This document shows, piece after piece, positions 31,925 to 54,200 of a DNA stretch of 64,000 nucleotides. The notes below the pieces were generated by a model that worked only from the letters and a program-made list of their open reading frames with translations, had not been told where the DNA came from and made no database searches. Positions within the stretch are counted from its first letter, which is position 1. Every line of letters starts with the position of its first letter. The stretch covers positions 1,648,501-1,712,500 of the forward strand of contig NZ_CP152019.1 in assembly GCF_038622445.1 (NCBI RefSeq), given 5' to 3'. The stretch comes from Sporosarcina sp. FSL K6-1522 (GTDB taxonomy: Bacteria > Bacillota > Bacilli > Bacillales_A > Planococcaceae). A program made the position numbers and the translations under genes.

Positions 31925-32031
31925 TGGGAGTAAGAAATATACAATAATTTTACGAATTCCATCAGTAAAGTATTGAACTGCCAGAGTATAAAGATTGGGC
32001 TATTTTATCTAAATGCAACATTGAATTAAGT

Positions 32032-32053
32032 AATTCTGAAATTAATTGAACAG
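32032..32053 (+). promoter_or_regulatory. Candidate upstream activator site, module A
   Basis: AATTCTGAAATTAATTGAAC lies about 123 bases before the -24 element. It matches motifs at the same distance from two acs promoters (45216-45240 and 45662-45685). Confidence 0.5.
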
Positions 32054-32152
32054 TTCGGAAGATTGCAGATTAATTGATTCATAAATGAATTATCTAAACG
32101 GAAACATGATGAATACTCCTATATCCCATCTGACTTTCTATTAAACAGAAAC

Positions 32153-32169
32153 TTGGCATTGTTCTTGCA
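32153..32169 (+). promoter_or_regulatory. Sigma-54 (-24/-12) promoter of module A
   Basis: TTGGCATTGTTCTTGCA matches the sigma-54 consensus with GG-N10-GC spacing. A cognate enhancer-binding protein gene lies at 43133. Confidence 0.85.
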
Positions 32170-32485
32170 AGTAGTATAAGTGTAAGGAACACAGCTCTAA
32201 TAACTTTTGCCAACAAAGCAAATAAGGTGGAGATGATATGTTCAGTTCAATGGCAATTAGTAAGAATTGGGGAATTAGAAAAAGATAACGGGTGAAGGGG
32301 TGGGAAATTTAATAAGGGATTTGTGAAAAATGTTATTGAAGTATCTATCAGGGAAAAGAGATGCTGAAACACGAAACTGTATATAATAATTGGGCTGTAC
32401 CTCATCCCGATTTCGGAAAAATCATTATACCTTAGTTGGGTAATCAAAAAGAATAGCAAAAATAGAATGCGGAGGGGAAATATAA

Positions 32486-33637
32486 ATGAGTAAAGCAGTG
32501 ATCGTCTCTGTGGCAAGAACTCCAATTACTAGAATACGAGGAGCTTTAAAAGATCTACATCCTTCCATTTATGGGGGACTTGTCATCAAAGAAGTGCTTC
32601 AAAGGGCACAAGTCGAAGGTGAAGAAGTGGATGACGTCATCTTTGGAAATTGTAATGCAGGCGGTGGGAATATCGCGCTTGTCTTTACTAGAAGGAGGGC
32701 TGCCCATAACGGTACCGGGCGTTACAATTGACCGGCAATGTGGATCGGGAATTAATACTGTTGCACTAGCTGCCGATGCCATCAATGCCGGAAGTGGGCG
32801 AATTCTAGTGGCAGGAGGAACGGAAAGCCTGACAAGGGCTCCTTATCTATTGGAATCTCCAAGTCAAGCATTTGATCGGGTTCCACCCAAGTTTTTACTG
32901 AAACAGTTGTCACCAGTGCACATCGGAAGTCCAACGATGGGTATTACCGCTGAAAACCTTGCGGAACGCTATGATATCAGCCGAGAGGAACAGGATGCCT
33001 TTGCCTTGCGAAGTCAGCAAAATATGAAAAAGGCGGTAGAACAAGGGTTTTATAAAGATCAGATTGTACCTGTACCCATCGAAGGAAGAAAAGGAGCAAT
33101 CACTTACCTTTCTGATGATGAACATCCAAGACCAGAAACGACCTTGGAAGGGTTAGCTCCTCTTCGTCCAGCATTTAAGGAAGATGGTACAGTAACCGCG
33201 GGTAACGCATCTGGTGTTTGTGACGGAGCCTCAGCGCTGCTTATGATGTCAGAAGAGGAAGCGTTGAAAAGAGGGGTGGAACCGCTCGCAAGGGTAGCCG
33301 ACTGGGCAATCGCTGGAGTGGATCCAAATATTATGGGGATAGGTCCTGTCCCCGCCATCAACAAGTTATTAGGGAAAATGGAATTGACTTTAGAAGATGT
33401 GGACCTGATTGAAATCAATGAAGCTTTTGCCAGCCAAGTACTCGCCTGCGACCGTGAACTAAACATGGATATGGAAAAGGTCAATGTGAATGGAGGAGCA
33501 ATTGCCCATGGGCATCCAATTGCTGCGACTGGTGGGATGCTAGTGATGAAACTAGCACATGAAATGAAGCGCCGGGATGTTAGGCGAGGACTCGTATCGG
33601 CGGAGGTCAAGGAATTGCCCTAATGCTTGAAAGGTAA
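32486..33637 (+). pseudogene. Thiolase (acetyl-CoA acyltransferase), module A, broken
   Basis: A former thiolase of about 387 residues, closely similar to the intact paralogue at 48155. After NAGGGNIA the frame is lost: compared with the paralogue, two bases of an Arg codon are missing near 32678. The main frame then runs open to 33596, where 10 bases are missing (the paralogue has AGCGCTTGTA there). That deletes the Cys of the SACIGGGQG motif and shifts the end. The nucleophile region DRQCGSG and the NEAF and GHP motifs survive. The original stop would be TAA 33635-33637. ATG 32486 follows GGAGGGG. Confidence 0.9.
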
Positions 33638-33708
33638 AGGAAAGAAGCAGTACGAAAACATATTTGTTATTTTAATGTACCTAGAAGTTTTTTAGAGGAG
33701 GTCATCTA

Positions 33709-34467
33709 ATGAGCCGTTTACAAGATAGAGTTGCTATTGTCACTGGTGCAGGGCAGGGGATTGGAGCGGAAACAGCAAAGCGATTAGCACAAGATGGGGC
33801 GAAGGTGGCAGTATTTGACCTGAATGAAGAGGTTGGTCGTGAAACAGTTCAAGCTATTCAATCCAATGGTGGAGAAGCGATTGCGATTGGTTGTAACGTT
33901 TCTGATGTCGAGCAAGTGAATGCTGGCGTTGAAAAAGTTGCTGCTCACTTTGGACGGATTGATATTTTGGTAAATAACGCTGGAGTGACCCGAGATAACC
34001 TTCTTTTCAAAATGTCAGTGGAAGACTGGGACACGGTGATGAATGTGCATCTAAAGGGCAGCTTTTTATGTGCCAAAGCAGTGCAGAAATTTATGGTTAA
34101 AGAACACTATGGAAAGATCATCAACATTAGTAGCGCATCAGCTCTGGGGAACCGCGGACAAGCCAATTATTCGGCGGCCAAGGCTGGATTACAGGGATTT
34201 ACCCGAACCTTAGCAATGGAATTAGGACCCTTTAACATTAATGTGAATTCTGTTGGTCCTGGGTATGTCATAACGGACATGACAAAGGCCACATCAGAAC
34301 GAGTAGGCTTGGATTTTGAGGAACAGCAAAAATTAATTGCAGAGAGAAATCCGCTTAGAAGAGTGGGGAAACCTGAAGATATTGCTAACGTAATCGCCTT
34401 TCTAGCTAGTGAAGACTCCAGTTACGTGAATGGACAAATTATCTACGTCAACGGAGGAGCCCGCTAA
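33709..34467 (+). CDS. FabG-like SDR (3-hydroxyacyl-CoA dehydrogenase type), module A
   Basis: A 252-residue classical SDR very close to FabG. It carries TGAGQGIG, NNAGVTRDN, the catalytic Ser in NISSASALG, the YSAAKAG motif (Tyr and Lys), and the C-terminal YVNGQIIYVNGG. Beside acyl-CoA dehydrogenase and MaoC-type hydratase genes it most likely oxidises (R)-3-hydroxyacyl-CoA to 3-oxoacyl-CoA. AGAGGAGG precedes the ATG. A paralogue lies at 49388. In module A the gap to the next gene is 278 bases, in module B only 54. Confidence 0.88.
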   Translation: MSRLQDRVAIVTGAGQGIGAETAKRLAQDGAKVAVFDLNEEVGRETVQAIQSNGGEAIAIGCNVSDVEQVNAGVEKVAAHFGRIDILVNNAGVTRDNLLFKMSVEDWDTVMNVHLKGSFLCAKAVQKFMVKEHYGKIINISSASALGNRGQANYSAAKAGLQGFTRTLAMELGPFNINVNSVGPGYVITDMTKATSERVGLDFEEQQKLIAERNPLRRVGKPEDIANVIAFLASEDSSYVNGQIIYVNGGAR

Positions 34468-34745: not shown

Positions 34746-35966
34746 ATGGAATTTTTATTGACAGAAGAACAGAGAATGGTGCAAAAAACAATTCGAGATT
34801 TCGTGCAGAAGGAACTAATTCCGTTAGAGCCGGAGGTATTGCGAAATGAGCGAGAAGGGCGTCCGGGAATTTCACCAGAAAAGCTCCACGAACTTCAGAT
34901 GAAAGCGAAAGAAATTGGTTTTTGGGGAATTGAAACCCCGGAGGAGTATGGAGGAGCAAACCTTGGGGCTGTAATGAGCGCAATTATTGCAATTGAAATT
35001 GCTAGAACTTTCATTCCATTTCGACTAGGCGGTGTGGCAGATAATATTCTCTATTTCTGTAATGAAGAACAGAAGAAAAAGTACCTGATTCCAACGATTA
35101 ACGGAGAACGTCGCTCTTGCTTTGCTATTACCGAACCAGGAGCTGGATCTGATGCTAAGAGCATCCGAATGTCGGCAGTTAAGGACGGGAATGACTGGGT
35201 TTTGAACGGGGAAAAGACTTTTATCACACAAGGGCATGAAGCGGATTTTACCATCGTGTTCGCAGTTACGGATAAGGAAAAAGGTGCAGACGGCGGAGTT
35301 ACTTGTTTCCTTGTAGATCGGGATATGGGGTGGCGTTCCGAGTATATCCATACAATGGGAGAATGGGGACCAGCCTCTCTCGTCTTTGAAAATGTGCGAG
35401 TTCCGGAAGAGAACATTTTGGGTGAAGTAGGTAATGGTTTTGAGCTTGCCATGAGATGGATCGGCAAAGGCCGATGGATGATTCCCGCTAGAGCTATTGG
35501 ATCTGCAGAAAGATTGCTGCAAATGGGCGTAGATTATTCCAAAATGCGTAAGACTTTTGGAAAACCGATTGCCGAACATCAAGCGATTCAGTGGATGCTT
35601 GCGGATTCCGCAGTAGAAATCGAGGCGACGAAGTGGCTCGTTTTACGTGCGGCGTGGATGGTAGAAAACGATGTTGATGCGCGTCATCAGTCAGCTATCG
35701 CCAAGCTATACGGCTCTAATATGGCCAACAATGTGGTGGACCGGGTACTGCAGATTCATGGAGGAATGGGTTATACGAAAGAGTTGCCGATAGAACGCTG
35801 GTATCGCGAATTAAGATTGCTTCGTATTTTTGAAGGTACTGATGAAATCCTGCGCCGCACAATTGCTCGCAACCTGATCAAAGGACATGTGAAGATTGGC
35901 GAAATCGATAGTGCAGACATGCTAGCCCGTAATGGAAGGAGGGAAAAAGTTGCTAGTAGATCCTAG
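34746..35966 (+). CDS. Acyl-CoA dehydrogenase, module A
   Basis: A 406-residue FAD enzyme that makes the alpha,beta double bond in an acyl-CoA and passes electrons to ETF. CFAITEPGAGSDA is the FAD/substrate loop, WVLNGEKTFI the beta domain, QIHGGMGYTKELPIERWYRE the C-terminal signature, and IFEGTDEI holds the expected catalytic Glu. It is longer at the C-terminus than its module B twin (the last 14 residues differ) because it reads through into the next gene. The ribosome binding site is GGGAGATGGAG. Etf genes lie downstream at 39337. Confidence 0.93.
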   Translation: MEFLLTEEQRMVQKTIRDFVQKELIPLEPEVLRNEREGRPGISPEKLHELQMKAKEIGFWGIETPEEYGGANLGAVMSAIIAIEIARTFIPFRLGGVADNILYFCNEEQKKKYLIPTINGERRSCFAITEPGAGSDAKSIRMSAVKDGNDWVLNGEKTFITQGHEADFTIVFAVTDKEKGADGGVTCFLVDRDMGWRSEYIHTMGEWGPASLVFENVRVPEENILGEVGNGFELAMRWIGKGRWMIPARAIGSAERLLQMGVDYSKMRKTFGKPIAEHQAIQWMLADSAVEIEATKWLVLRAAWMVENDVDARHQSAIAKLYGSNMANNVVDRVLQIHGGMGYTKELPIERWYRELRLLRIFEGTDEILRRTIARNLIKGHVKIGEIDSADMLARNGRREKVASRS

Positions 35967-36375
35967 TATTATCGGAAGTACAAGTGAATCAAAAATATTT
36001 GAGATCGAAAAAGGCGCCATTCGTAATTTTGCTGTAGCCATTGGCGATGATAATCCCTTGTACACGGATGAGGCGTTTGCTAAGGAATGCGGGTATCGAA
36101 GCATCGTTGCACCTCCTACATTTCCAACTACAATCCGGGTGACGAATCCGAAGGTCCAGTTTGAACCAAGTCGAGTTTTGCACGGAGGGATGGAATATCT
36201 TTATGAACGACCAATTGTAGCAGGAGATATCTTGCGCTGTTTCAGCTCTGTGACCGAGGTCTATGAAAGAGAAGGAAAGATGGGCAAGATGACGTTTCTC
36301 GTGCAGGAAACCCGCGGTGAAGATTTGGAAGGTAACTTGGTGTATCGCGGGAAAAACACGCTGATTGTGCGCTGA
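35950..36375 (+). CDS. MaoC-like N-terminal hot-dog subunit (HadA/FAS1_DH type), module A
   Basis: About 141 residues, single hot-dog fold. The motif GDDNPLYTDEAFA corresponds to the hydratase-2 signature, but Tyr replaces the catalytic His, so this is probably the substrate-binding partner of a heterodimer, as in mycobacterial HadAB. AAGGAGGG at 35935-35942 favours TTG 35950 as start (in-frame ATG 35932 is the alternative). It overlaps the acyl-CoA dehydrogenase end by 17 bases. The next gene encodes the catalytic partner. Confidence 0.82.
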   Translation: MLVDPSIIGSTSESKIFEIEKGAIRNFAVAIGDDNPLYTDEAFAKECGYRSIVAPPTFPTTIRVTNPKVQFEPSRVLHGGMEYLYERPIVAGDILRCFSSVTEVYEREGKMGKMTFLVQETRGEDLEGNLVYRGKNTLIVR

Positions 36376-36389: not shown

Positions 36390-36806
36390 ATGACTGGAAT
36401 TGACTGGATTCGGGCAGAGGTTGGGCAGGAGTTTAAGCCTCTTGTCAAGCCGGCAATTGAAAAAGTCCAATTAGTAAAATATGCCGGAGCGTCTGGAGAT
36501 TTTAATTTGATTCATACCGATGTTGAGACGGCAAAAAGTGTCGGTCTACCTGGCACCATCGCACACGGAATGCTCAGCATGGGGTTTCTAGGTCAGTTAT
36601 GCGGTCAGTTGGCCGGAACAAACGGTTTTGTCAACCGATTGATGGTTCGGTTTGCAGGCATGGTCTTTCCTGAGGACATTCTGACTTGTCGGGCCAAGGT
36701 TACAAACAAGGATGAGGAAGAGCGTACGTTGGATTTAGAAATTTACGTAGAGCGAGAACCAGGCAAGGCTTTAACAACAGGCGAGGCAACGCTGAAGTTT
36801 TACTAA
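36390..36806 (+). CDS. MaoC-like catalytic hydratase subunit (HadB type), module A
   Basis: A 138-residue hot-dog protein with the full hydratase-2 dyad in GDFNLIHTDVETAKSVG (Asp and His), and GTIAHGML as the second conserved loop. Paired with the preceding subunit it would catalyse (R)-specific hydration of enoyl-CoA. GGAGGG precedes the ATG, 14 bases after the previous stop. The twin in module B (53671) has been separated from its partner by a transporter gene. Confidence 0.85.
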   Translation: MTGIDWIRAEVGQEFKPLVKPAIEKVQLVKYAGASGDFNLIHTDVETAKSVGLPGTIAHGMLSMGFLGQLCGQLAGTNGFVNRLMVRFAGMVFPEDILTCRAKVTNKDEEERTLDLEIYVEREPGKALTTGEATLKFY

Positions 36807-36937: not shown

Positions 36938-39010
36938 ATGCTGGTATTCCTTAATTTTATTGCCTTTCTGGCAGTAACGGGCTATGCGATTTATCTGGTT
37001 GCGAATCTTGTTTATAGCCGTGTAACCTTCATCAAATTGGGGAAGAAGTCCAATTTGGGAAGGGATACCCGACAGCGTGTCAATGAAGTTCTGATCAACG
37101 TATTTGGCCAGAAAAAATTGTTTAAAGACAAGAAAAGCGGTTTTATGCATTTGATATTATTTTATGGCTTCTTCATCATCCAAATAGGACTCATCGAAAT
37201 CATAATCAAGGGATTTATTACTGGTTATGAATTTCCTTTTAAAGCCGCGCACAAATATTTCACACTCATGCAGGAGTGGACGACCTTCCTTATGCTGTGC
37301 GCTGTTGTATATGCTTTTTACCGTCGATATATTGAAAAGCTGAAGCGGTTGCAATTTAAGCGAGATGCCAAAGCTGCTTTTGTTTATATTGGACTGACCA
37401 CATTGACTGTGTCCATCCTGCTTACGCTGGGCTTCGAAACCATTATGCTCGGGCACAAACCAGACTTCATCCACGCTCCCTTTTCCGGGGTAATTGCGAC
37501 AGTGTTCTCTGGCATCGGAACGGCGGCTGGAACTGTGTTTTTCTATGTATTTTGGTGGGTACACTTACTGAGCGTTTTATCATTTATGGTGTTCGTACCA
37601 CAGTCGAAGCAAGCGCATGAGCTATTTGCGTTGTTCAATGTCTTTTTCAAGAAGACAGGACCGGTCGGAAAGTTGGAGAAAATTGATTTTGAGGATGAAG
37701 AAATCGAGGAATACGGCGTCGGGAAAATAGAAAACTTTACCCGGCGGCAGCTGATTGATTTGTATGCATGTGCGGAGTGTGGGAGATGTACGAATATGTG
37801 TCCCGCTTCAGAAACAGGGAAGACGTTATCCCCGATGAATCTAATCATTAAAATGAGGGATCATTTGACAGAAAAAGGAGCGGTTGTTACTTCGCGTAAC
37901 CCGTGGATGCCGAGTTATATTTTTGGGTCTTCTGCATCATCCCCGGCACTAACGGCTGGATTGGCAGCTGGGGAAACAGCGGCAACGGTTGAACTGCCTA
38001 ATTTGATTGGCGATGTAATCACTGAAGAAGAGATTTGGGCTTGTACGACATGTCGTAACTGTGAGGATCAATGCCCCGTTGCCAATGAGCACGTAGATAA
38101 AATTATCGATCTGCGTCGATACCTAGTGTTAACTGAAGGCAATATGCCGCACGAAGCAACTCGCTATTTCCAAAATATAGAACGGCAAAGCAATCCATGG
38201 GGCATTAACAAGAAGGAACGCATTAAATGGCGCGAAGGCAGAGAAGATATCGTAGTGCCTACTGTTGATGAAGTGGAAGATTTTGAGTATCTGTTTTTTG
38301 TAGGCTCGATGGGATCCTATGATAATCGGAGCCAGAAAATTGCTCAATCGTTCGCCAAAATCATGAATGTGGCTGGTGTGAAATTTGCGATTTTAGGAAA
38401 CGAAGAACGCAATTCAGGTGATACTGCTCGTCGGATGGGGAATGAATTTTTATTCCAGCAGTTATGCGAAGAGAATATAGCCAATTTCCAGGCTTATGGT
38501 GTAAAGAAAATCGTAACCATTTGCCCGCATACGTACAATACATTTAAACATGAATATCCTGAATTTGGTTTAGAAGCCGAAGTCTATCATCATACCGAAC
38601 TCATTTTCAAGCTAATTCAGGAAGGTCAAATTAAGCCAATGAAGGAAGTGCAAGAAGCTGTTGCGTACCATGATTCTTGCTATATTGGCCGATACAATGA
38701 CATTTATGATATACCACGACAAATATTAAAGTCCATCCCTGGTGTTCAAGTACTGGAAATGGAACGAAATAGAGAAGAAGCAATGTGTTGTGGAGCTGGA
38801 GGCGGTAATATGTGGGTGGAGGAAACCGAAGGAAAACGGGTTAACATTGAACGAACGGAACAGGCTCTTAAGTTGGATCCAACAATGATTGGAAGCAATT
38901 GCCCGTATTGTCTGACGATGATGAGTGATGGGACCAAGGCGAAAGAGGTAGAAGAACAAGTAAAAACGATGGATATTGTTGAAATTCTTGAGAAATCTTT
39001 AGTGTGTTAA
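36938..39010 (+). CDS. fadF: FadF-like membrane Fe-S oxidoreductase (ETF:quinone type)
   Basis: A 690-residue protein resembling B. subtilis FadF (YwjF). The N-terminal 250 residues hold about five membrane helices of the NarI/DUF3483 type. Two [4Fe-4S] motifs follow, CAECGRCTNMCP and CTTCRNCEDQCP. Two CCG domains end the protein (SCYIGRYNDIYD and CCGAGGGNMW in the second). Such proteins take electrons from ETF and reduce menaquinone. Its position between the acyl-CoA dehydrogenase module and etfBA fits. The ribosome binding site is AAAGGATG. No sigma-54 promoter was seen directly upstream. Confidence 0.9.
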   Translation: MLVFLNFIAFLAVTGYAIYLVANLVYSRVTFIKLGKKSNLGRDTRQRVNEVLINVFGQKKLFKDKKSGFMHLILFYGFFIIQIGLIEIIIKGFITGYEFPFKAAHKYFTLMQEWTTFLMLCAVVYAFYRRYIEKLKRLQFKRDAKAAFVYIGLTTLTVSILLTLGFETIMLGHKPDFIHAPFSGVIATVFSGIGTAAGTVFFYVFWWVHLLSVLSFMVFVPQSKQAHELFALFNVFFKKTGPVGKLEKIDFEDEEIEEYGVGKIENFTRRQLIDLYACAECGRCTNMCPASETGKTLSPMNLIIKMRDHLTEKGAVVTSRNPWMPSYIFGSSASSPALTAGLAAGETAATVELPNLIGDVITEEEIWACTTCRNCEDQCPVANEHVDKIIDLRRYLVLTEGNMPHEATRYFQNIERQSNPWGINKKERIKWREGREDIVVPTVDEVEDFEYLFFVGSMGSYDNRSQKIAQSFAKIMNVAGVKFAILGNEERNSGDTARRMGNEFLFQQLCEENIANFQAYGVKKIVTICPHTYNTFKHEYPEFGLEAEVYHHTELIFKLIQEGQIKPMKEVQEAVAYHDSCYIGRYNDIYDIPRQILKSIPGVQVLEMERNREEAMCCGAGGGNMWVEETEGKRVNIERTEQALKLDPTMIGSNCPYCLTMMSDGTKAKEVEEQVKTMDIVEILEKSLVC

Positions 39011-39166
39011 AAAAATATCATTAGCTAATTTGGCGTAGTCATTGGTTACTTTTCGGTCATGGTGAATTTTTTATTATTTCCCATGGAAATCAGTGTGTGG
39101 TGTAAGTAACTGAACGCGGTGCATTTCTTTTCTACAAAAGTCAAAATTGCAACAATGAATTGTTGG

Positions 39167-39182
39167 ATTCGAATTTGAATTG
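39167..39182 (+). promoter_or_regulatory. Candidate activator site upstream of etfBA
   Basis: ATTCGAATTTGAATTG lies about 110 bases before the -24 element. Its first 13 bases occur identically at 43083-43095, before the sigma-54 activator gene. Confidence 0.45.
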
Positions 39183-39275
39183 CCAAAATAACTGTGCCTC
39201 TTGAGTAATAAATCAATTTTGAATAACGGCACAACTTTAGACATCCGTATATCGCATGGATTGAACCATTTTACT

Positions 39276-39292
39276 TTGGCATAAAAATTGCA
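39276..39292 (+). promoter_or_regulatory. Sigma-54 (-24/-12) promoter of etfBA
   Basis: TTGGCATAAAAATTGCA has the GG-N10-GC spacing and both consensus boxes. Confidence 0.85.
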
Positions 39293-39336: not shown

Positions 39337-40104
39337 ATGAAAATACTAGTGTTGTTAAAGCAGACGTTTGATACCGAAGAGAAAATTTCCCTTCAAAATG
39401 GCAAGGTTAACGAACAAGGGGTTGAATTCATTATCAATCCATATGATGAGTATGCCGTGGAAGAAGCCATGAAATTAAAAGAGGAATTAGGGGCAGAGGT
39501 AACAGTGCTTACTGTGGGGCCATCACGAACGGAAAGTGCACTTCGAACAGCCCTTGCAATGGGAGCGGATAAGGCTATACAGATTGAACAGGATGGTTCA
39601 GAAGCGGATGAATATTTTATCTCGAATATCATTGTTGCAGCGATCAAGAATCAGGACTTTGATCTCATTCTTGGTGGTAATGCATCGATAGATTCAGGGG
39701 CTGGCCAAATCGCTATCCGAGTGGCGGAAATTTTAGGAATCCCTCACGTTGCAACCATTACTAAATTATCTATTGACGGAAGAATAGCTACCGTTGAGAG
39801 AGAGGTAGAAGGAGATCTGGAAACCGTTGAAGTAGAACTTCCATTTTTGGCGACTGCCCAACAAGGGTTGAATGAACCACGTTATCCTTCATTGCCGGGG
39901 ATTATGAAAGCAAAAAAAAAGAAAATCGAACACCTAGTTTTAGAGGAGTTGGATATCTCTGAAGAGCAGCTAGGTGCCCGAACAGAACTCCTAGACCAAT
40001 ATTTGCCCCCTAAGAAGCAAGCGGGTCGAATTCTGACAGGAGAAACAGCTGACCAGGTGAACGAATTGCTTCAATTGCTTCGTACGAAAGCAAAAATTAT
40101 TTAA
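39337..40104 (+). CDS. etfB: Electron transfer flavoprotein beta subunit
   Basis: A 255-residue ETF beta subunit. It begins MKILVLLKQTFDTEEK and shows the conserved NPYDEYAVEEA and DLILGGNASIDSGAGQI segments that bind AMP and face the dehydrogenase. It accepts electrons from the acyl-CoA dehydrogenases of modules A and B. Directly behind a sigma-54 promoter, with AAGGAAAGGG upstream; etfA follows after a gap of about 19 bases. Confidence 0.93.
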   Translation: MKILVLLKQTFDTEEKISLQNGKVNEQGVEFIINPYDEYAVEEAMKLKEELGAEVTVLTVGPSRTESALRTALAMGADKAIQIEQDGSEADEYFISNIIVAAIKNQDFDLILGGNASIDSGAGQIAIRVAEILGIPHVATITKLSIDGRIATVEREVEGDLETVEVELPFLATAQQGLNEPRYPSLPGIMKAKKKKIEHLVLEELDISEEQLGARTELLDQYLPPKKQAGRILTGETADQVNELLQLLRTKAKII

Positions 40105-40123
40105 GTGGGAGAGGATGAGAAAG

Positions 40124-41092
40124 ATGAGCAAAATACTTGTAGTTGCCGAATTAAGAGACGGAAAACTAAGAAATGTGTCTTTTGAAGCATTAACGCTGGC
40201 TCGATCTCTAGAGGCAAATAGTGAAGTGAGTGCAGTCCTTTTTGGTCAAGGAGCAGATGCCTTTCTGGAAGACATCAGTAAGTACGGAGCTGACCGGTTG
40301 TATGTGACGGATGATCAGGCCTTATCTACTTATACAATAGATGCTTATGCCCGGGCATTGACGGGTTTGATTAAGGAAGTAGAGCCAGATATTATTCTCA
40401 TGGGTCATACGGCCATAGGAAAAGATCTAGCACCGCGCGTCGCTGCACGATTGGGAATTGGGTTGATATCCGATTGCACAGGGGTAGAAATAGAGGATGG
40501 CAAGATTGTGTTTTCCCGTCCGATTTATGCGGGGAAAGCATTTGAGAAGAAAGTATTCCTTGAAGGAACGCAATTTGCTACTCTCCGTCCAAATAACTTT
40601 GAGACTTCAGAGAAGCCTGTCAAGACTGAGTTGACTGCATTCAAACCGGAAATAAAAGACTTGCGAACGATTGTGAAGGAAGTTGTAAGAAAAACTTCTG
40701 GAGAGCTAGATCTTAGCGAGGCTAAAGTCATTGTTGCCGGCGGTAGGGGAGTAAAGAGCGCGGAAGGGTTTGAGCCGCTTAGGGAATTAGCAAGGGTTCT
40801 GGGAGGCGCAGTTGGGGCCTCTCGGGGGGCTTGCGACGCCGAGTATTGTGATTATTCTTTGCAAATAGGACAGACAGGAAAAGTCGTCACGCCTGATCTC
40901 TATATCGCATGCGGCATTTCAGGTGCCATTCAGCACGTGGCAGGTATGTCTAATTCGAAAACGATTATTGCGATTAATAAAGATCCAGAGGCGCCAATTT
41001 TTCAAGTAGCCGATTATGGGATTGTCGGAGATTTATTTGAGATTATCCCTGTGTTGACGGAAGAAATTAAACAAGCATTGGTAACCAGTTAA
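40124..41092 (+). CDS. etfA: Electron transfer flavoprotein alpha subunit
   Basis: A 322-residue ETF alpha subunit. The C-terminal FAD-binding domain shows VIVAGGRGV, GASRGACDAEY, QIGQTGKVVTPDLYIACGIS and AIQHVAGM. ATG 40124 lies 9 nt after GGGAGAGG, better than ATG 40115. It forms the FAD-carrying dimer with EtfB and should donate electrons to FadF. A terminator follows. Confidence 0.93.
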   Translation: MSKILVVAELRDGKLRNVSFEALTLARSLEANSEVSAVLFGQGADAFLEDISKYGADRLYVTDDQALSTYTIDAYARALTGLIKEVEPDIILMGHTAIGKDLAPRVAARLGIGLISDCTGVEIEDGKIVFSRPIYAGKAFEKKVFLEGTQFATLRPNNFETSEKPVKTELTAFKPEIKDLRTIVKEVVRKTSGELDLSEAKVIVAGGRGVKSAEGFEPLRELARVLGGAVGASRGACDAEYCDYSLQIGQTGKVVTPDLYIACGISGAIQHVAGMSNSKTIIAINKDPEAPIFQVADYGIVGDLFEIIPVLTEEIKQALVTS

Positions 41093-45685: not shown

Positions 45686-45775
45686 GGGGATAATCATTTA
45701 ATTATGTATCTTGAAGGCTAAAGAATAACGTACATTCCTTTATTGTTACAGTCTTCATCATGAGTCTTTTGAAAC

Positions 45776-45792
45776 TTGGCATCATACTTGCA
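45776..45792 (+). promoter_or_regulatory. Sigma-54 promoter 3, proximal to acs
   Basis: TTGGCATCATACTTGCA, GG-N10-GC, 125 bases before the start codon. It is the copy most likely to drive the gene. Confidence 0.85.
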
Positions 45793-45916
45793 ATAGTTAG
45801 TATTGTACAAGGTAGTGAAATGAATTGCTTTAGATAGTCAGCAAGAGATTTGTAAAATGCAACGATAAGCATAAAGTAAGCGTTTGCACAAAAATCATTT
45901 AATGGGGTGAGTATTT

Positions 45917-48040
45917 ATGAGAAAAAAATTAAATCTAGAACCTATGTTTTCCCCGAAATCTATTACAGTCATCGGAGCATCAGGTGATCCAGGGAAAATT
46001 AGTGCAAGACCGTTACATCTAATACGTAACTTAGGGTATGAAGGTTCAGTTTACCCTGTGCATGCAAGGCACAATGAATTAGAAGGATATCCCTGTTATG
46101 AGAATTTTGAAAGTTTGCCAGAAGATATTGATATGGCCATCATTTCAATTAGAGCATCGGCTGTCTTGCCTGCTCTAGAAGAATTGGCAAAAAAGTCAAT
46201 AAAAAGTGCAGTTGTTTTTAGTTCTGGTTTTGCGGAAGCTGGGGATGATGGAAGGGAACTTCAACAGAATCTGACTGACTTTGTTGAACGAACCGGCATT
46301 CCAGTAGTCGGACCAAATTCCATAGGTTTCTTCAATTTAAAAGACAAAGTAGTTGCTTCGTTTCAACAAATAGAAGCGACCAATAAGGATCCAATTGCAT
46401 TCGTTACACAAAGTGGAGCTTTTGGAACAATTGCCTACAGAATGCTAGAAGAAATGGGAGTAGGTTTACAGTACTTTGTTTCTTCGGGGAATGAGGCAGG
46501 TATCGACTTCTTTGATTATGTTCACTATTTCGCTGAGCAGGAAGAGATTGAAGTCATTGGCGGTTATATTGAAGGGGCTAGAGATATGGAGACAATGGAT
46601 AATGCTATCCGTTTATGCCAAGAAAATGATAAGCCACTTATCTTATTTAAGGTAGGAACGACTGAGTTAGGAGCCACTGCCGCAATTTCTCACACGGCTT
46701 CTATAGCAGGAAATGCATCGATTTACTCTAATTATTTTGAAGCAAATAATGTTGTCCAAGTGGATGATGAAGAAGAATTGATCGATACAATTAACCTGTT
46801 TCATAAGGCAAAGAAAAGCCCTAAAAGGGGTGGGACGGCGATCGTTACGATCTCGGGCGGTGCCGGAATCGTAATGGCAGATAAATGTGTACAATACGAT
46901 GTAGAGTTTGCTGATTTGGCACCTGAGACAATCACACAATTGAAGGAAATTTTACCGCCATTTGCATCTGTCAAAAATCCTATTGATGTTACAGCACAAT
47001 TCATTCAGAATCTTGATCACTTTTCGGATAGCATCAATATTTTATTAAAAGATGACGCGGTAGAGTCAGTTGTACTTTATATGCAAATATTGGATGCTGC
47101 CGCACCTGTGCTCATTCCCGAAATATCAAAAATAGCGAATGAAACGGATAAAACTTTTGTTGTTTGTTGGGCAGGTGCTTCAGATCAGACGAAAGAATTG
47201 TTATCTAATAGTGGTATTTGTTGGCTACCTTCAGCAAGTCGTTCAATTCGAGCCCTGAAAAATCTGATGCATTATAATAAACGCAAGGATCTCTTGTCTG
47301 AACAAAAAGGAGCTCTTGAGGAAAGAGTGACCGATAGCCTGGAATTGGAGGCATTCGGAGGGGGGATTAATGAACATAGGGGTAAAAGCTATTTAGATAA
47401 GTATGGGATTCCTATACCGAAAGGCGACATAGCCGAAAATGTTGAAGAAGCTGTCAAGTTAGCTGATACAATAGGATATCCCGTTGTTTTAAAAGTACTG
47501 TCGCAGCAGATTGCCCATAAAACCGAGGCTGATGTTATAAAAATCAATGTAAAATCTGCCGAGGAAGTTAGAAGGACTTTTGAAGAAATCATGTCCAACG
47601 CTTTAAAATATGACGGGAAAGCTAAAATTGACGGAATTATCGTGGAAGAGATGGTTGAGGATGGTGTGGAAGTAATGATTGGATCGATACAAGATCCGTT
47701 ATTCGGTCCATCTATTGTTCTATCCCTTGGAGGAATTTTTGTTGAAGTATTTAATGATTCAGTAATTAAACAAGCGCCGTTAAATATAAAAGATGCAAAA
47801 GAGATGATCCAGTCCATCAAAGGATATGAAATCTTAAAAGGTATCCGAAATAAAGGACCTTATGATATCCAAGCATTAGCAGAAACGATTGTGAAAGTTT
47901 CAGAATTGAGTGTAGATCAAAAAGATTGGTTACATGAATTGGATATTAACCCTGTAATGGTGCATGAAGAAGGAAAAGGGGTAACGGCTCTTGATGCACT
48001 ATTCGTTGGAGAGCAAAAGCTCGTATCTGTATCTCATTAA
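45917..48040 (+). CDS. ADP-forming acyl-CoA synthetase (NDP-forming, fused subunits)
   Basis: A 707-residue fused synthetase that makes acyl-CoA from a carboxylic acid, CoA and ATP, giving ADP and phosphate. The N-terminal CoA-binding domain (TVIGASGDPGKI, residues 17-28) is followed by succinyl-CoA ligase-like domains with the phospho-His motif AISHTAS (H259), and a C-terminal ATP-grasp domain (about 480-700; YPVVLKVLSQQIAHKTEADV). It is the likely activating step of the pathway, behind three sigma-54 promoters. AATGGGGTGAG precedes ATG 45917. The module B thiolase gene follows after 114 bases. Confidence 0.9.
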   Translation: MRKKLNLEPMFSPKSITVIGASGDPGKISARPLHLIRNLGYEGSVYPVHARHNELEGYPCYENFESLPEDIDMAIISIRASAVLPALEELAKKSIKSAVVFSSGFAEAGDDGRELQQNLTDFVERTGIPVVGPNSIGFFNLKDKVVASFQQIEATNKDPIAFVTQSGAFGTIAYRMLEEMGVGLQYFVSSGNEAGIDFFDYVHYFAEQEEIEVIGGYIEGARDMETMDNAIRLCQENDKPLILFKVGTTELGATAAISHTASIAGNASIYSNYFEANNVVQVDDEEELIDTINLFHKAKKSPKRGGTAIVTISGGAGIVMADKCVQYDVEFADLAPETITQLKEILPPFASVKNPIDVTAQFIQNLDHFSDSINILLKDDAVESVVLYMQILDAAAPVLIPEISKIANETDKTFVVCWAGASDQTKELLSNSGICWLPSASRSIRALKNLMHYNKRKDLLSEQKGALEERVTDSLELEAFGGGINEHRGKSYLDKYGIPIPKGDIAENVEEAVKLADTIGYPVVLKVLSQQIAHKTEADVIKINVKSAEEVRRTFEEIMSNALKYDGKAKIDGIIVEEMVEDGVEVMIGSIQDPLFGPSIVLSLGGIFVEVFNDSVIKQAPLNIKDAKEMIQSIKGYEILKGIRNKGPYDIQALAETIVKVSELSVDQKDWLHELDINPVMVHEEGKGVTALDALFVGEQKLVSVSH

Positions 48041-49387: not shown

Positions 49388-50140
49388 ATGGGTTCTTTAA
49401 AAAACAAGGTTGCTATCGTCACAGGAGCTGGTCAAGGGATTGGTGCTGCAACAGCAAAGCGATTAGCGCAGGAAGGTGCCAAGGTGGCAGTATTTGATCT
49501 AGAGCCTGGTCGTGAAACAGTTCAAACGATAGAATCGATAAATGGAGAAGCGATTGCAGTAGCTTGTGACGTTTCCGATGTTGAGCAAGTAGATGTTGCC
49601 GTCGAGAAGGTTGTCTCCCATTTTGGACGGGTGGATATTTTGGTGAACAATGCCGGAGTGATCCGTGACAATCTGATTTTCAGAATGTCTCCAGAAGATT
49701 GGGATCTCGTAATGAATGTGCATTTAAGAGGTAGTTTTTTATGTACTAAAGCAGTGCAGAAACATATGGTGGAACAACGATTTGGAAAAATTATTAACAT
49801 TAGCAGTGCTTCAGCTATGGGGAATCGCGGACAGGCTAATTATTCTGCCGCAAAAGCTGGAATACAAGGCCTTACAAAAACTTTAGCGTTGGAACTGGGG
49901 CCTTTTAATATTAATGTGAATTCAGTCGCCCCGGGATATGTTGTAACTGACATGACAAAGGAAACATCAGAACGAGTTGGTTTGGATTTTGAGGAGCAAC
50001 AACAATTAATTGCAAAAAATAACCCGCTTAGAAAGGTTGGTAAACCCGAGGATATCGCAAATGTAATTGCTTTTTTGGCTAGTGAAGACTCCAGTTATGT
50101 GAATGGACAAATAATCTATGTTAACGGAGGAGCGCGCTAG
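49388..50140 (+). CDS. FabG-like SDR (3-hydroxyacyl-CoA dehydrogenase type), module B
   Basis: A 250-residue classical SDR, clearly paralogous to the module A enzyme along its full length (TGAGQGIGAATAKRLAQ, NNAGVIRDN, YSAAKAG, YVNGQIIYVNGG). It is two residues shorter near position 35, where FDLEPGRE replaces FDLNEEVGRE. GAAGGAGG precedes the ATG. The acyl-CoA dehydrogenase gene follows after 54 bases. Confidence 0.88.
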   Translation: MGSLKNKVAIVTGAGQGIGAATAKRLAQEGAKVAVFDLEPGRETVQTIESINGEAIAVACDVSDVEQVDVAVEKVVSHFGRVDILVNNAGVIRDNLIFRMSPEDWDLVMNVHLRGSFLCTKAVQKHMVEQRFGKIINISSASAMGNRGQANYSAAKAGIQGLTKTLALELGPFNINVNSVAPGYVVTDMTKETSERVGLDFEEQQQLIAKNNPLRKVGKPEDIANVIAFLASEDSSYVNGQIIYVNGGAR

Positions 50141-50194: not shown

Positions 50195-51385
50195 ATGAAT
50201 TTTTCATTAACAGAAGAACAGGAAATGGTCCAAAATACAATTAGGAATTTTGTGCGCAATGAATTAATTCCATTAGAGCCAGAGGTGCTACGAAATGAAC
50301 GAGAAGGACGTCCAGGATTATCTCCAGAAAAGCATCGTGAACTACAAATGAAAGCAAAAGAAATTGGATTTTGGGGGATTGAAACTCCTGAGGAATACGG
50401 TGGGGCAAACTTAGGGGCTGTAATGCAATCAATCATCACAACGGAATTATCCAAAACTTTTATACCGTTTCGACTCGGAGGTTTTGCGGATAATATTCTT
50501 TATCACTGTAATGAAGAACAGAAGAAAGAATACCTGATTCCAACTATCAACGGGGATCGTATATCTTGTTTTGCGATCACTGAACCCGGTGCTGGATCAG
50601 ATGCTAAGGGCATTCGAACGCTAGCTGTGAAGGATGGAAATGAATGGGTTATAAATGGAGAGAAGACTTTTATTTCAAACGGAAATATTGCAGATTTTGC
50701 CATCGTATTTGCGGTTACAGATAGGGAAAAAGGAGCAAACGGTGGCGTTACCGCTTTTCTAGTAGATAGAGATATGGGATGGCGTTCTGAGGCTATTCCT
50801 ACAATGGGCGAATGGGGAGCCGACTCTTTGGTCTTTGAAGATGTCCGGGTTCCAGAAAAAAACATTTTAGGTGAATTAGGCAAAGGTTTTGAACTTGCTA
50901 TGAAATGGATCGGTCGGGGCCGATGGATGGTTCCATCAAGAGCAGTTGGAGCAGCTGAAAGATTGCTTCAGATGGGTGTAGATTATTCTCAGGTGCGTAA
51001 GACGTTTGGTAAACCGATTGCTGATTATCAAGCGATCCAGTGGAAGTTAGCAGACTCGGCGGTAGAAATTGAGGCCACGAAATGGCTTGTTTTACGAGCA
51101 GCGTGGATGTCGGAGAATAATATGGATGGACGTCATCAGTCAGCGATTGCCAAGCTATATGGTTCTAACATGGCTAACAGAGTTGTCGATCGGGTACTAC
51201 AAATTCATGGTGGAATGGGTTATACAAAAGAGTTACCGATTGAACGCTGGTATCGTGAATTAAGATTGTATCGTATCTTTGAAGGTACAGACGAAATCCT
51301 ACGCCGCACAATTGCCCGAAACTTGCTCAAAGGACATGTAAAGATTGGAGAAATTTCATCACCGCCTAAACTAGTTCGTTCATGA
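50195..51385 (+). CDS. Acyl-CoA dehydrogenase, module B
   Basis: A 396-residue FAD acyl-CoA dehydrogenase, paralogous to 34746-35966. It has the same motifs: CFAITEPGAGSDA, WVINGEKTFI, QIHGGMGYTKELPIERWYRE, and IFEGTDEI with the catalytic Glu. The module A twin reads on past this point. The ribosome binding site is AAGGGAGCTGGGG. The close match of active-site loops suggests overlapping substrates for the two copies. Confidence 0.93.
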   Translation: MNFSLTEEQEMVQNTIRNFVRNELIPLEPEVLRNEREGRPGLSPEKHRELQMKAKEIGFWGIETPEEYGGANLGAVMQSIITTELSKTFIPFRLGGFADNILYHCNEEQKKEYLIPTINGDRISCFAITEPGAGSDAKGIRTLAVKDGNEWVINGEKTFISNGNIADFAIVFAVTDREKGANGGVTAFLVDRDMGWRSEAIPTMGEWGADSLVFEDVRVPEKNILGELGKGFELAMKWIGRGRWMVPSRAVGAAERLLQMGVDYSQVRKTFGKPIADYQAIQWKLADSAVEIEATKWLVLRAAWMSENNMDGRHQSAIAKLYGSNMANRVVDRVLQIHGGMGYTKELPIERWYRELRLYRIFEGTDEILRRTIARNLLKGHVKIGEISSPPKLVRS

Positions 51386-51402
51386 TGGAAGGAGAGGAAA
51401 AG

Positions 51403-51828
51403 GTGCAAATAGATCCTAGTATTATTGGAAGTTCAAGTGAATCAGAAACTTTTGAAATAGAAAAAGGTGCCATTCGGCGTTTTGCTGAGGCCGTTGGCGA
51501 TGATAATCCCTTGTACACAGATGAAGCATTTGCCAAGGAATGTGGGTATCGGAGTATAATTGCTCCACCCACATTTCCAACGACGATTAGGGTGATGAAT
51601 CCAAGTATCGAATTCGAGCCTAGTCGGGTCTTACATGGAGGTATGGAATATCTTTTTGAACGGCCAATTGTGGCGGGTGATGTCTTGCGTTGTGCTAGTT
51701 CTGTCATTGATGTCTATGAAAAAGAAGGGAAAATCGGCAAGATGACATTTCTTGTGCAGGAAACCCGTGGTGAAGATTTGGATGGCAACTTAGTGTATCG
51801 CGGAATAAATACGCTGATTCTCCGTTAA
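51403..51828 (+). CDS. MaoC-like N-terminal hot-dog subunit (HadA type), module B
   Basis: About 141 residues, paralogous to the module A subunit. It again has GDDNPLYTDEAFA with Tyr in place of the catalytic His, so the loss is shared and probably functional. AAGGAGAGG favours GTG 51403; ATG 51382 or 51385 are alternatives. Unlike in module A, its catalytic partner is not next door but 1.8 kb away, behind a transporter gene. Confidence 0.82.
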   Translation: MQIDPSIIGSSSESETFEIEKGAIRRFAEAVGDDNPLYTDEAFAKECGYRSIIAPPTFPTTIRVMNPSIEFEPSRVLHGGMEYLFERPIVAGDVLRCASSVIDVYEKEGKIGKMTFLVQETRGEDLDGNLVYRGINTLILR

Positions 51829-52197
51829 GGTAATCTAAGAGATTCCCAGCAATTTCATTTTACTAGATTTTTAATGTCGGGTATTTCATCGACTTCTAAT
51901 TATCCGTAAAGCCTATGTATATACAGATCAAATTTAATTTAAATGAGGATTAAAATACGCCTAATATTTTTACTGGAAGATCGGAAACAATTTTATCTGT
52001 GTATTTTGATATGTTTAAGTAAATCAAGTATTAATTGAGGTAACAACTAGTCACCTCCATTGTGGTTACCTCATTAATACGTTAGACATTAGAAGCAATG
52101 TGTAAAACCTTTTATGAGAGCGCATACAATCAGAAAAGGTATTACTCTTTTACCAAGAAATGTTTGACAATACGAATAACATTAGGGGGATAAATAA
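51829..52197. other. 369-base gap inside module B, with an inverted repeat
   Basis: No gene is visible. ATTAATTGAGGTAAC (52030-52044) and GTTACCTCATTAAT (52065-52078) form a 14-bp inverted repeat with one bulged T, with no T-run after it. It may be an operator, or a weak terminator before the transporter gene. The second half otherwise looks like an ordinary AT-rich upstream region. Confidence 0.45.
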
Positions 52198-53595
52198 ATG
52201 GTGACAGATAAGTTGGATACTCCGACATTGAACAATACCACTCATGCGAGTGAAAGTGGAAATGAAAGTGAAAGTGTTGGAAAATTAGAGGTTTTTGGTT
52301 ATGGTGTTGGTAATTTTGGCTATGTACTATCTTGGGGATTAATAATAGCTTTTCTATCGTACTTTTACACGGATATTATTGGTATTTCAGCTGGTCTTGT
52401 AGGGATATTATTGTTAGTAGCCCGGGTATGGGATGGTGTATCTGATGTTATTATGGGTCTTATTATAGATAGGACAAACTCAAAACATGGAAAAGCACGT
52501 CCATATGTATTGTGGTTATGTATTCCATTTAGTTTATCTGTTATTTTATTGTTTACTGTTCCAAATCTAAGCCTTAATGGTAAATTTACTTATGCGCTAA
52601 TTACGTACAGCTTTTTTATTCTTATGTATACGGCAATTTCGATTCCAATGAAAACACTTCTTGGACAAATGACGCAAGATAAAAGTTCACGAACTGCATT
52701 AGGTTTAAGCCTTTCGATTGCATTTACTGTTGGTACATTAGTTGTAAAAGCAAGTGCTGAACCAGTAGCCAGCTCAATTGGCGGCCAGCTAGGGTGGGTT
52801 GTTGTTGCCGGTATCATCGCTGTTTTAGCATCAATTTGCCTAATGACCACGTTTAAATTAACGACAGAGAGGGTAAAAGAAAGTCCGAAAACAAAAGAGA
52901 GAAAACACAATTTAAAAGAAGAGTTGAAATCACTATCAAAAAACAAGTATTGGATAATAATAGTATCGTATGGTTTTCTTTATTATATGATGCTGGGAAT
53001 GCAAGGTGCCGAAGTTTATTATGCTAAATATATGTTTGGAAGTGCAAGTTATTTTTCACTATTTACGCTAGCTAAAACGATTCCAGGAATAGCGCTTTTA
53101 GCTATACTATCACCGTTTGCGAAGCGCCTAAACAAGAAAAATCTTGCTATTTTAGGTGCCGCACTTATTATAGTGTCCGGTTTTGTTAAGATGGTGGATC
53201 CGGCATCATTAAATTACTTTTTAATAGGTACTGCATGTTTAGGATTGGCACAAACCTTTATAGCAACAGTAGTCTATACGATGGTTAATGACACTGTAGA
53301 CTATGGTGAATGGTCAACTGGGATACGTACCCCTGGATTAGCAAATAGTAGTATGAGTTTTGGGATGAAAGTTGGATCAGGTATTAGTGGTGCAATAATG
53401 GGTGGGCTTCTATCTTTTGTTGGTTATATTGGAACACGTGCAACGCAACCAGAAAATGTTAATCAAATGATTATTTTTCTGAATATGCATTATCACATTA
53501 TATTGGGTGTTGTTATGCTAGTCATCATATTATTTTATGGACTTGAAAAAAGATACCCGCAAATAATCAAAGATCTAGAAAAAAGTAATGCTTAA
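52198..53595 (+). CDS. MFS transporter of the GPH (glycoside-pentoside-hexuronide) type
   Basis: A 465-residue, 12-helix transporter resembling the GPH cation symporters (MelB/XynB/YicJ group). A hydrophilic N-terminal stretch rich in Ser and Thr (1-30) precedes helix 1; FLSYFYTDIIGISAGLVG and RVWDGVSDVIMGLIIDRTNSKHGKARPYVLW are the family-typical helix 1-2 loop and helix 2-3 loop. NDTVDYGEWSTGIRTPGL is the second family motif. It is inserted between the two MaoC genes of module B and is probably the importer for the island's substrate. GPH proteins usually carry sugars or uronates, so a polar substrate is possible. Confidence 0.87.
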   Translation: MVTDKLDTPTLNNTTHASESGNESESVGKLEVFGYGVGNFGYVLSWGLIIAFLSYFYTDIIGISAGLVGILLLVARVWDGVSDVIMGLIIDRTNSKHGKARPYVLWLCIPFSLSVILLFTVPNLSLNGKFTYALITYSFFILMYTAISIPMKTLLGQMTQDKSSRTALGLSLSIAFTVGTLVVKASAEPVASSIGGQLGWVVVAGIIAVLASICLMTTFKLTTERVKESPKTKERKHNLKEELKSLSKNKYWIIIVSYGFLYYMMLGMQGAEVYYAKYMFGSASYFSLFTLAKTIPGIALLAILSPFAKRLNKKNLAILGAALIIVSGFVKMVDPASLNYFLIGTACLGLAQTFIATVVYTMVNDTVDYGEWSTGIRTPGLANSSMSFGMKVGSGISGAIMGGLLSFVGYIGTRATQPENVNQMIIFLNMHYHIILGVVMLVIILFYGLEKRYPQIIKDLEKSNA

Positions 53596-53670
53596 TTTTA
53601 GAACCAATGAAAATAAGGTTTTGTATAGATAAGATTAGAATGATACAAAAACATAAAGGGAGGGAAATCA

Positions 53671-54087
53671 ATGGGGGGAATTGACTGGAATCAGGCAAAG
53701 GTGGGGCAAGAGTTTAAACCCCTTGTCAAGCCAGCAATTGAAAAAGTCCAATTAGTAAAATACGCTGGTGCATCTGGTGACTTTAATTTGATCCATACTG
53801 ATGTGGAGACAGCAAAACAGGTCGGGTTACCGGGGACTATCGCACATGGAATGCTTGGCATGGGTTATTTAGGTCAATTATGTGGTCAGTTGGTTGGAAC
53901 AAACGGTTTTGTCAGTCGTTTGACGGTTCGGTTTTCGGGTATGATATTTCCTGGAGATGTTCTTACCTGTCGGGCAAAGGTTACAAATAAGAATGAAGAA
54001 AAGCGTACACTCGATTTAGAAATCAACCTGGAGCGAGAGCCAGGAAAAGCATTGACATCCGGTGAAGCAACATTGAAATTCTATTGA
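53671..54087 (+). CDS. MaoC-like catalytic hydratase subunit (HadB type), module B
   Basis: A 138-residue hot-dog protein, paralogous to 36390-36806, with the catalytic Asp and His in GDFNLIHTDVETAKQVG and the GTIAHGMLGMGYLGQL loop. It should pair with the HadA-like subunit at 51403. AAAGGGAGGG precedes the ATG. The first 60 residues are almost identical between the two copies, which suggests strong constraint on the active site. Confidence 0.85.
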   Translation: MGGIDWNQAKVGQEFKPLVKPAIEKVQLVKYAGASGDFNLIHTDVETAKQVGLPGTIAHGMLGMGYLGQLCGQLVGTNGFVSRLTVRFSGMIFPGDVLTCRAKVTNKNEEKRTLDLEINLEREPGKALTSGEATLKFY

Positions 54088-54131
54088 ATTTCTTCTTCTG
54101 TTTCTCAGAATAAACCCAATTTTGTAAACGC

Positions 54132-54200
54132 GCACATTATTCCAGTATCCTCTTTCCACTTTAATCCGGAAGGAAATCTGAGATAATGTGTTCTTTTTTT
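54132..54200 (+). terminator. Probable terminator of module B
   Basis: ACATTAT (54134-54140) and ATAATGT (54183-54189) form the base of a long imperfect hairpin with an inner CTTTCC/GGAAGG stem, followed by TTCTTTTTTT. Confidence 0.5.

Follow-up and report, generated by a model that had tools for sequence, protein, structure and literature searches.

What pathway do the duplicated beta-oxidation genes of Sporosarcina sp. FSL K6-1522 encode, and how are they controlled? The genes lie in a 64-kb stretch of contig NZ_CP152019.1 (positions 1,648,501 to 1,712,500), which as a whole we call the window; coordinates below count from its first letter. A sequence-only reading had proposed a sigma-54-controlled island at 31925-54200 with two parallel (R)-specific beta-oxidation modules. 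These limits are near those given by DNA alignment with Bacillus sp. FJAT-29790, which spans 31856 to 54089 (the end of the last aligned piece). All of the island genes are on the plus strand, at ~31.9-54.1 kb, and every gene named in that reading is present and belongs to the family stated. We consider it likely, with a probability of roughly 0.6, that the locus is an inducible (R)-specific beta-oxidation island, probably acquired and possibly fed from a 2-oxo acid.

The island encodes a complete set for a probable (R)-specific beta-oxidation

The set comprises a ligase, acyl-CoA dehydrogenases, a hydratase, a hydroxyacyl dehydrogenase, a thiolase (through thl2 only) and an electron-transfer flavoprotein (Etf) outlet. 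In the following list, sdr1, acd1, fadF, etfB, etfA, acs, sdr2, acd2, hadA2 and hadB2 were assigned with family models, and sdr2 and hadB2 also from solved relatives.

32486..33623, plus strand: thl1, thiolase pseudogene; 2-bp and 10-bp deletions relative to thl2, C-terminal catalytic Cys gone
33709..34467, plus strand: sdr1, FabG-like short-chain dehydrogenase/reductase (SDR), 252 aa
34746..35966, plus strand: acd1, acyl-CoA dehydrogenase, 406 aa (388 aa in FJAT-29790)
35932..36375, plus strand: hadA1, FAS1_DH/HadA-like hot-dog protein with Tyr at the position of HadB's catalytic His
36390..36806, plus strand: hadB1, MaoC/HadB-like hydratase with a GDFNLIH (Asp/His) motif
36938..39010, plus strand: fadF-like Fe-S protein, CCG and 4Fe-4S domains, 690 aa (we presume that the name fadF fits this architecture)
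39337..40104, plus strand: etfB
40115..41092, plus strand: etfA
41169..42920, plus strand: tpp, thiamine pyrophosphate (TPP) enzyme of the NF005470/PRK07064 family, 583 aa, above the family cut-off
43133..44818, plus strand: s54, sigma-54 activator with PAS, AAA+ and HTH_50 domains; loop GSFTGA, a variant of GAFTGA
45917..48040, plus strand: acs, ADP-forming acyl-CoA synthetase, fused alpha/beta, 707 aa
48125..49318, plus strand: thl2, intact thiolase, two catalytic Cys motifs kept
49388..50140, plus strand: sdr2
50195..51385, plus strand: acd2
51382..51828, plus strand: hadA2
52198..53595, plus strand: GPH/MFS_2 cation symporter, between hadA2 and hadB2
53671..54087, plus strand: hadB2

The acyl-CoA dehydrogenases carry the FEGT Glu motif, the SDRs have YxxxK with an Asp after beta2, and thl2 holds both catalytic Cys motifs. 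HadB1 and HadB2 read GDFNLIH, which places the Asp/His dyad of hot-dog hydratases in a single subunit; HadA1 and HadA2 read GDDNPLY, with no His. We assume the usual meanings of these dehydrogenase, Had, SDR and thiolase motifs, including that an Asp at the end of beta2 marks the NAD type. The best solved relative of the SDRs is 2et6, a (3R)-hydroxyacyl-CoA dehydrogenase (BbsD is fourth in the list). An (R)-3-hydroxyacyl route, as the sequence-only reading had it, is thus borne out at the level of families and motifs by a D-x4-H HadB-like hydratase and an SDR closest to (3R)-hydroxyacyl-CoA dehydrogenase. The motifs fit catabolism by this route, with a predicted (3R) product and predicted NAD use.

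That reading had also called the acid unusual, which does not follow, as nothing in the analysis identifies the substrate. No NCBIfam model scored above its cut-off for the acyl-CoA dehydrogenases, the ligase, EtfA, EtfB, FadF, HadA or HadB, and none named a substrate. The nearest solved chains are general in function and indicate no substrate; among solved chains, the ligase is nearest to a 4-hydroxybutyrate ligase.

The same enzymes might run in reverse, supplying (R)-3-hydroxyacyl-CoA for polymer or reductive synthesis in a PhaA-PhaB-PhaJ-like manner. Polyhydroxyalkanoate (PHA) precursor supply uses the logic of thiolase, FabG/PhaB-like SDR and MaoC, which is also the logic of these genes. 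However, the acyl-CoA dehydrogenases, EtfBA, FadF, acyl-CoA ligase and importer point to oxidation, both SDRs end beta2 with an Asp, which would favor NAD if the motif has the meaning assumed above, and no PHA synthase is among the island genes. We consider reverse operation very improbable.

Predicted sigma-54 promoters and upstream dyads

We called a -24/-12 site strict if it kept GG and GC and departed from TGGCAYRNNNNTTGCW, which we take to be the sigma-54 consensus, at no more than one position. The 64-kb window contains five such sites, and all five are ahead of the island's three operons; in fifty mononucleotide shuffles the mean was 1.04 and the maximum 3. Allowing two mismatches narrows the excess: the window then has 50 sites, and 100 dinucleotide shuffles average 34, none of them attaining 50. 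A dyad, AATTCA-N4-TGAATT, recurs upstream of the island promoters. The sites and dyads are:

32012..32091, plus strand: three dyads with 1-2 mismatches, 142, 122 and 78 bp upstream of promoter 1
32154..32169, plus strand: sigma-54 site of operon 1, TGGCATTGTTCTTGCA, 1 mismatch, preceding thl1
39146..39225, plus strand: three dyads with 2 mismatches each, 131, 111 and 67 bp upstream of promoter 2
39277..39292, plus strand: sigma-54 site of operon 2, TGGCATAAAAATTGCA, perfect match, 60 bp before etfB
45197..45231, plus strand: two dyads with 1 mismatch each, 144 and 125 bp upstream of the promoter at 45341
45255..45846, plus strand: acs promoter region, two 156-nt copies (92%, spacing 436) with three sigma-54 sites
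45341, 45411 and 45777 (within 45255..45846), plus strand: acs sigma-54 sites, TGGCATCATNCTTGCA, 1 mismatch each
45643..45658, plus strand: perfect dyad, AATTCAAAGGTGAATT, 134 bp upstream of the promoter at 45777

In FJAT-29790 (locus L011), strict sites are found at the same three places, including one at 1217 ahead of the thiolase gene and a perfect one at 8098 ahead of etfB. The 156-nt duplication before acs, with its 436-bp spacing, has multiplied the enhancer along with the promoter, giving three strict sites against one in FJAT-29790. Among ten more distant core clusters from other genomes (loci L103-L112, described below), eight (L103-L109 and L112) have a strict site on the hadA strand close to the cluster's head, ~2-3 kb before hadA; the L103 site falls within the longest frame as called. 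L110 and L111 have no strict site upstream of hadA, and the L111 contig is only 6.6 kb long. RpoN is encoded in the window's genome, and the activator loop GSFTGA differs slightly from GAFTGA, which we take to be the activator-loop motif. The activator is below the cut-off of the PrdR model NF041552 (400.7 bits against 795). Based on the promoter sites and on the presence of an activator together with RpoN, predicted membership in a sigma-54/enhancer-binding-protein regulon is supported; the control proposed earlier agrees with the position of all five strict sites and with the matching sites in FJAT-29790.

The dyads are regularly spaced and are putative activator-binding sites. With up to 2 mismatches allowed, the window has 19 dyads where 11.1 are expected (2 of 100 shuffles equal that), and nine of the 19 sit just upstream of island promoters. 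A dyad is found 120-150 bp upstream in 6 of the 8 window and FJAT-29790 promoters, as compared with a rate of 0.9% both at random positions and in shuffled upstream regions, although these window and FJAT-29790 counts are partly circular because the dyad was spotted by eye in the same promoters before it was counted. Three of the eight have a second copy at 77-78 bp, and a fourth has one at 67 bp. The relatives are the fairer test: a dyad (up to 2 mismatches, within 220 bp) accompanies 6 of their 8 core promoters, the misses being L104 and L112.

A sister island dates the duplication

The island of Bacillus sp. FJAT-29790 (NZ_JAHNZZ010000001.1, loci L011, L113 and L114) is collinear with the window over thl-sdr-acd-hadA-hadB-fadF-etfBA-tpp-s54-acs. 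It differs in having a single set with an intact thiolase gene, an aldehyde dehydrogenase (ALDH) gene between tpp and s54, an MFS_1 instead of the GPH transporter, and one strict acs promoter site. Protein identities between the two islands range from 77% for the ligase to 96% for acd1 and 98% for sdr1, so that the highest values are in the back end of the pathway.

Within the window, the proteins of set 1 (thl1 to hadB1) and set 2 (thl2 to hadB2) are 80% (thiolase), 81% (SDR), 83% (acyl-CoA dehydrogenase), 82% (HadA) and 86% (HadB) identical, with DNA identities of 76-80% across the five pairs. Synonymous divergence (dS) between set 1 and the FJAT-29790 set is 0.17-0.43, whereas set 2 is separated from either of them by 0.87-1.5, near saturation. 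In a tree of four concatenated proteins, set 1 groups with the FJAT-29790 set (support 98), and these two together with set 2 stand apart from the relatives (support 100). As read from these comparisons, set 1 is the orthologue of the FJAT-29790 set and set 2 split off earlier. Tree and dS together therefore place the duplication before the split of the two islands, and FJAT-29790 either lost set 2 or never received it. The ratio of nonsynonymous to synonymous divergence (omega) is 0.04-0.17 for the five pairs in all comparisons (0.06-0.10 between sets), which indicates purifying selection on both sets; between the islands it is 0.07 for fadF and 0.16-0.17 for etfB and etfA.

The description of set 1 and set 2 as two copies of the same five genes holds as to homology (80-86% pairwise) but needs two corrections: thl1 is a pseudogene, and set 2 is not contiguous, the GPH transporter gene splitting hadA2 from hadB2. 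thl1 is divided over two frames (32486-32731 and 32571-33623); alignment with thl2 shows deletions of 2 bp near 32675 and of 10 bp close to the 3' end, and the stretch that would hold the second catalytic Cys is missing. The thiolase gene of FJAT-29790 is intact. Judging by these deletions, set 1 has no functional thiolase left, barring two separate assembly errors, and at least the thiolase step must thus be shared between the sets. The end of acd1 (35905-35966) continues 18 residues beyond the FJAT-29790 length and overlaps the start of hadA1.

Set 1 could accordingly be read as a decaying spare in one pathway, with set 2 having taken over and set 1 losing genes with no separate substrate. 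The two deletions in thl1, the odd C-terminal extension on acd1 and the sufficiency of a single set in FJAT-29790 all fit such a history. On the other hand, sdr1, acd1, hadA1 and hadB1 all remain open reading frames, with sdr1 and acd1 96-98% identical to their FJAT-29790 counterparts, and the dS between sets (0.9-1.4, near saturation) exceeds the inter-island dS of set 1 (0.17-0.43), from which it follows that both sets were kept for a long time, at an omega between sets of 0.06-0.10. We find the decaying spare somewhat doubtful. The idea of two parallel modules stands as far as long retention of both under selection is concerned, and fails for the thiolase of set 1.

The TPP enzyme and a possible source of the acid

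The TPP enzyme scores 613.4 bits against the NF005470 cut-off of 495 and so belongs to the PRK07064 family, whose model description names no reaction. Scanning genome contigs with this one protein, which reaches close relatives only, returned 58 loci. Beta-oxidation genes accompany the TPP gene in one of them, the FJAT-29790 island (L011), so that the neighborhood search called for by the sequence-only reading found a single sister island. In 56 of the 58 loci the homologue (55-63% identity) belongs to another cluster, with an SDR, an ALDH, an aspartate-dehydrogenase-like protein, a two-subunit Rieske dioxygenase and a dihydrodiol dehydrogenase; an extradiol dioxygenase accompanies it in 55 of the 58. 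These counts denote presence in the locus at >=45% identity to locus L018, from which alone the families and gene order were taken. The TPP gene was therefore ruled out as a marker of the island.

The other cluster (L012-L067, e.g., L018:8191-16617) is a conserved eight-gene cluster of Bacillales. Its order in L018 is extradiol dioxygenase, SDR, TPP enzyme, ALDH, aspartate-dehydrogenase-like protein, Rieske alpha and beta subunits, and dihydrodiol dehydrogenase, and it looks like an aromatic degradation pathway. The gene order SDR-TPP-ALDH in L018, together with TPP-ALDH in FJAT-29790, suggests that the TPP enzyme is a 2-oxo-acid decarboxylase that feeds an acid to the pathway.

An aromatic acid is a possible substrate: the island could carry out side-chain beta-oxidation of a phenylpropanoid or other aromatic acid to aryl-CoA and acetyl-CoA. 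In line with this, the TPP homologues of 56 of the 58 loci share their cluster with an HcaEF-like Rieske dioxygenase; SCP2-type thiolases lie beside the core in L103 and L109, and in L109 a ChsH2-like OB protein does so too. There is also a precedent in Desulfococcus multivorans, for which PMC5109826 proposes 3-phenylpropanoate beta-oxidation by a ligase, an acyl-CoA dehydrogenase, dehydrogenases and a thiolase. However, the genome has no match to the PaaA or PaaC family and one Rieske alpha subunit, and thus no obvious aryl-CoA route (other ring-cleavage families were not searched). The ligase's nearest solved chain acts on 4-hydroxybutyrate, and no enzyme-specific model was above its cut-off for the ligase, the acyl-CoA dehydrogenases or HadA/HadB. 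On balance we regard aromatic side-chain degradation as rather unlikely.

Distribution and probable acquisition

HadA2 has matches at E<=1e-20 in 104 of 398 genomes of the class, the window's own included. Besides the own genome, only 10 of the 398 have a hadA at >=56% identity (56-69%), one each, and no further hadA at this level was found in 39 genomes of one such family. None of the 67 other genomes of the window's genus matches hadA at E<=1e-45. The island therefore looks horizontally acquired. Acquisition also fits the DNA similarity to FJAT-29790, which is confined to the island within the 40 kb taken from that genome, and the transposase genes at the right edge (54521-58240). No plasmid source came to light: a tblastn search of 72,556 plasmid records with hadA2 matched 75, and the best place of each is <60% identical.

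The clusters around these ten hadA genes (L103-L112) resemble the window in their sdr-hadA-hadB core, present in 10 of 10, and in the strict sigma-54 site in 8 of 10. An acyl-CoA dehydrogenase gene at 76-81% identity is found in eight, L111 and L112 having only a 32% relative; the activator (56-58%) is present in six, etfBA in four and fadF in three (two cut by the end of the stretch). The clusters are unlike the window in having, within the stretches taken, no close TPP or GPH relatives and only distant or other ligases. Family scans, which covered 10 selected proteins in each relative scanned, also found MFS_1 transporters and MBL-fold hydrolases.

Might the island simply carry out straight-chain fatty acid beta-oxidation under unusual control? 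The enzyme set is complete for it, and PMC12316311 predicts an enrichment of sigma-54 promoters at beta-oxidation genes in Bacilli and Clostridia. Nevertheless, a hadA of the island kind is absent from all 67 congeners, and the island brings its own transporter and ligase. The genome encodes, besides, an 826-aa frame containing a 3HCDH domain, of FadN-type size (the name is our inference), so that the island seems to supplement ordinary beta-oxidation. We consider the straight-chain explanation quite unlikely.

Several observations concern the surroundings. An IS481-like transposase and an AAA ATPase gene are on the minus strand at the right edge (54521-56633), followed by a PDDEXK_2 transposase gene (57296-58240), making the right junction rich in mobile elements. 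On the left, the island adjoins an HNH endonuclease gene (30819-31736) weakly similar to phosphorothioated-DNA restriction enzymes. The window also has a 1650-aa open reading frame (3136-8088). Outside it, the genome carries a third hadA/hadB pair, 45-46% identical to those of the island (G000:C1:1786500-1795100, locus L118), in a locus where another ADP-forming ligase (37%) is joined by an ALDH-like gene (32%) and by genes resembling acyl-CoA dehydrogenases (25-26%).

Proposed pathway

Gene families, promoter sites, dyads, the pseudogene and the duplication history are read from the DNA itself, and from them we infer all the biochemical steps that follow. The PAS/AAA+ activator would bind the dyads ~78 and ~140 bp upstream and start sigma-54 transcription of three operons: thl1 through fadF; etfBA-tpp, perhaps with the activator gene; and acs through hadB2. 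A carboxylate would be imported by the GPH symporter and converted to its CoA thioester by the ADP-forming ligase. The acyl-CoA dehydrogenases would oxidize the thioester, with electrons passing via EtfBA and FadF to quinone; HadAB would hydrate the enoyl-CoA to the (3R)-hydroxy form, which the NAD-type SDR would oxidize to 3-oxoacyl-CoA for cleavage by thl2. Most likely, the TPP enzyme would act on a 2-oxo acid to supply the precursor of the acid, together with an ALDH such as the one whose gene adjoins tpp in FJAT-29790. The two sets stem from an ancient duplication that selection has maintained, probably because they serve different acyl intermediates, and set 1, its thiolase lost, would rely on thl2.

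A number of findings weigh against this pathway or parts of it. The breakage of thl1 weakens the idea of two working sets. No ALDH gene is beside the window's TPP gene, and the genome's nearest relative of the FJAT-29790 ALDH is 55% identical and 0.8 Mb away. Between the islands, omega is higher for tpp (0.30), the activator (0.20) and the ligase (0.20). Only 3 of the 10 relatives have a thl2-like thiolase (56-66%), and at least L103 and L109 have the SCP2 type. The ligase is not conserved: five relatives have a 26-29% ADP-forming homologue, and AMP-forming ligases occur in the scanned relatives L104, L106, L111 and L112. The stretches of the ten relatives contain no close relative of the TPP or GPH protein. 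As for the dyads, apart from the circularity noted above, the window promoter at 45411 and the FJAT-29790 promoter at 8098 have none at 120-150 bp, and in the relatives none of five other promoters, some serving fadF or etfB, has one.

A fuller version of the favored pathway would be a so far undescribed Bacillales system in which a 2-oxo acid is decarboxylated, oxidized, activated by the ADP-forming ligase and degraded by two (R)-sets specialized on successive acyl intermediates, under one activator and dyad code, with a transferable back end and varying front ends (transporter, ligase, ALDH). We hold this version tentatively and think it less likely to be right than wrong.

If the favored pathway is correct, the island is a catabolic cassette complete in itself: it carries its regulator and an enhancer code that can be read, occurs in few of the searched genomes and has apparently been transferred, and through it (R)-specific beta-oxidation has been added to a cell that also holds a FadN-sized protein of the ordinary route. 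The search for the substrate would then be made simple by following the promoter. The paired sets with their broken thiolase offer a natural test of specialization after duplication.

Comparison with known systems

A search of one open-access library found no described pathway with the island's gene content, in keeping with the earlier statement that none was known in Bacillales. As far as that search shows, the cassette, the putative dyad enhancers, the retention of both sets after duplication with loss of one thiolase, and the apparently exchangeable front end are new. The chemistry is of a known kind.

The island shares the HadA and HadB subunit families with the mycobacterial HadAB dehydratase of fatty acid synthase II (FAS-II), and both families rank among the top-matching models and solved chains for its hot-dog proteins. 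Unlike FAS-II HadAB, the island proteins are in a context of CoA beta-oxidation and not of acyl carrier protein (ACP) synthesis, and their scores of ~63-66 bits, far below the NCBIfam cut-offs (180 for NF040624 and 203 for NF010246), place them outside the FAS-II HadAB family. (R)-specific hydratase and SDR chemistry is known from the type 2 multifunctional enzyme (MFE-2) and from sterol side-chain enzymes. With (R)-specific beta-oxidation by MFE-2 (in yeast and peroxisomes) and by MaoC-type hydratases, the island has in common the logic of a hot-dog hydratase followed by a (3R)-hydroxyacyl-CoA dehydrogenase; unlike these systems, it has separate HadA and HadB subunits, a bacterial Etf/FadF electron route and predicted sigma-54 control.

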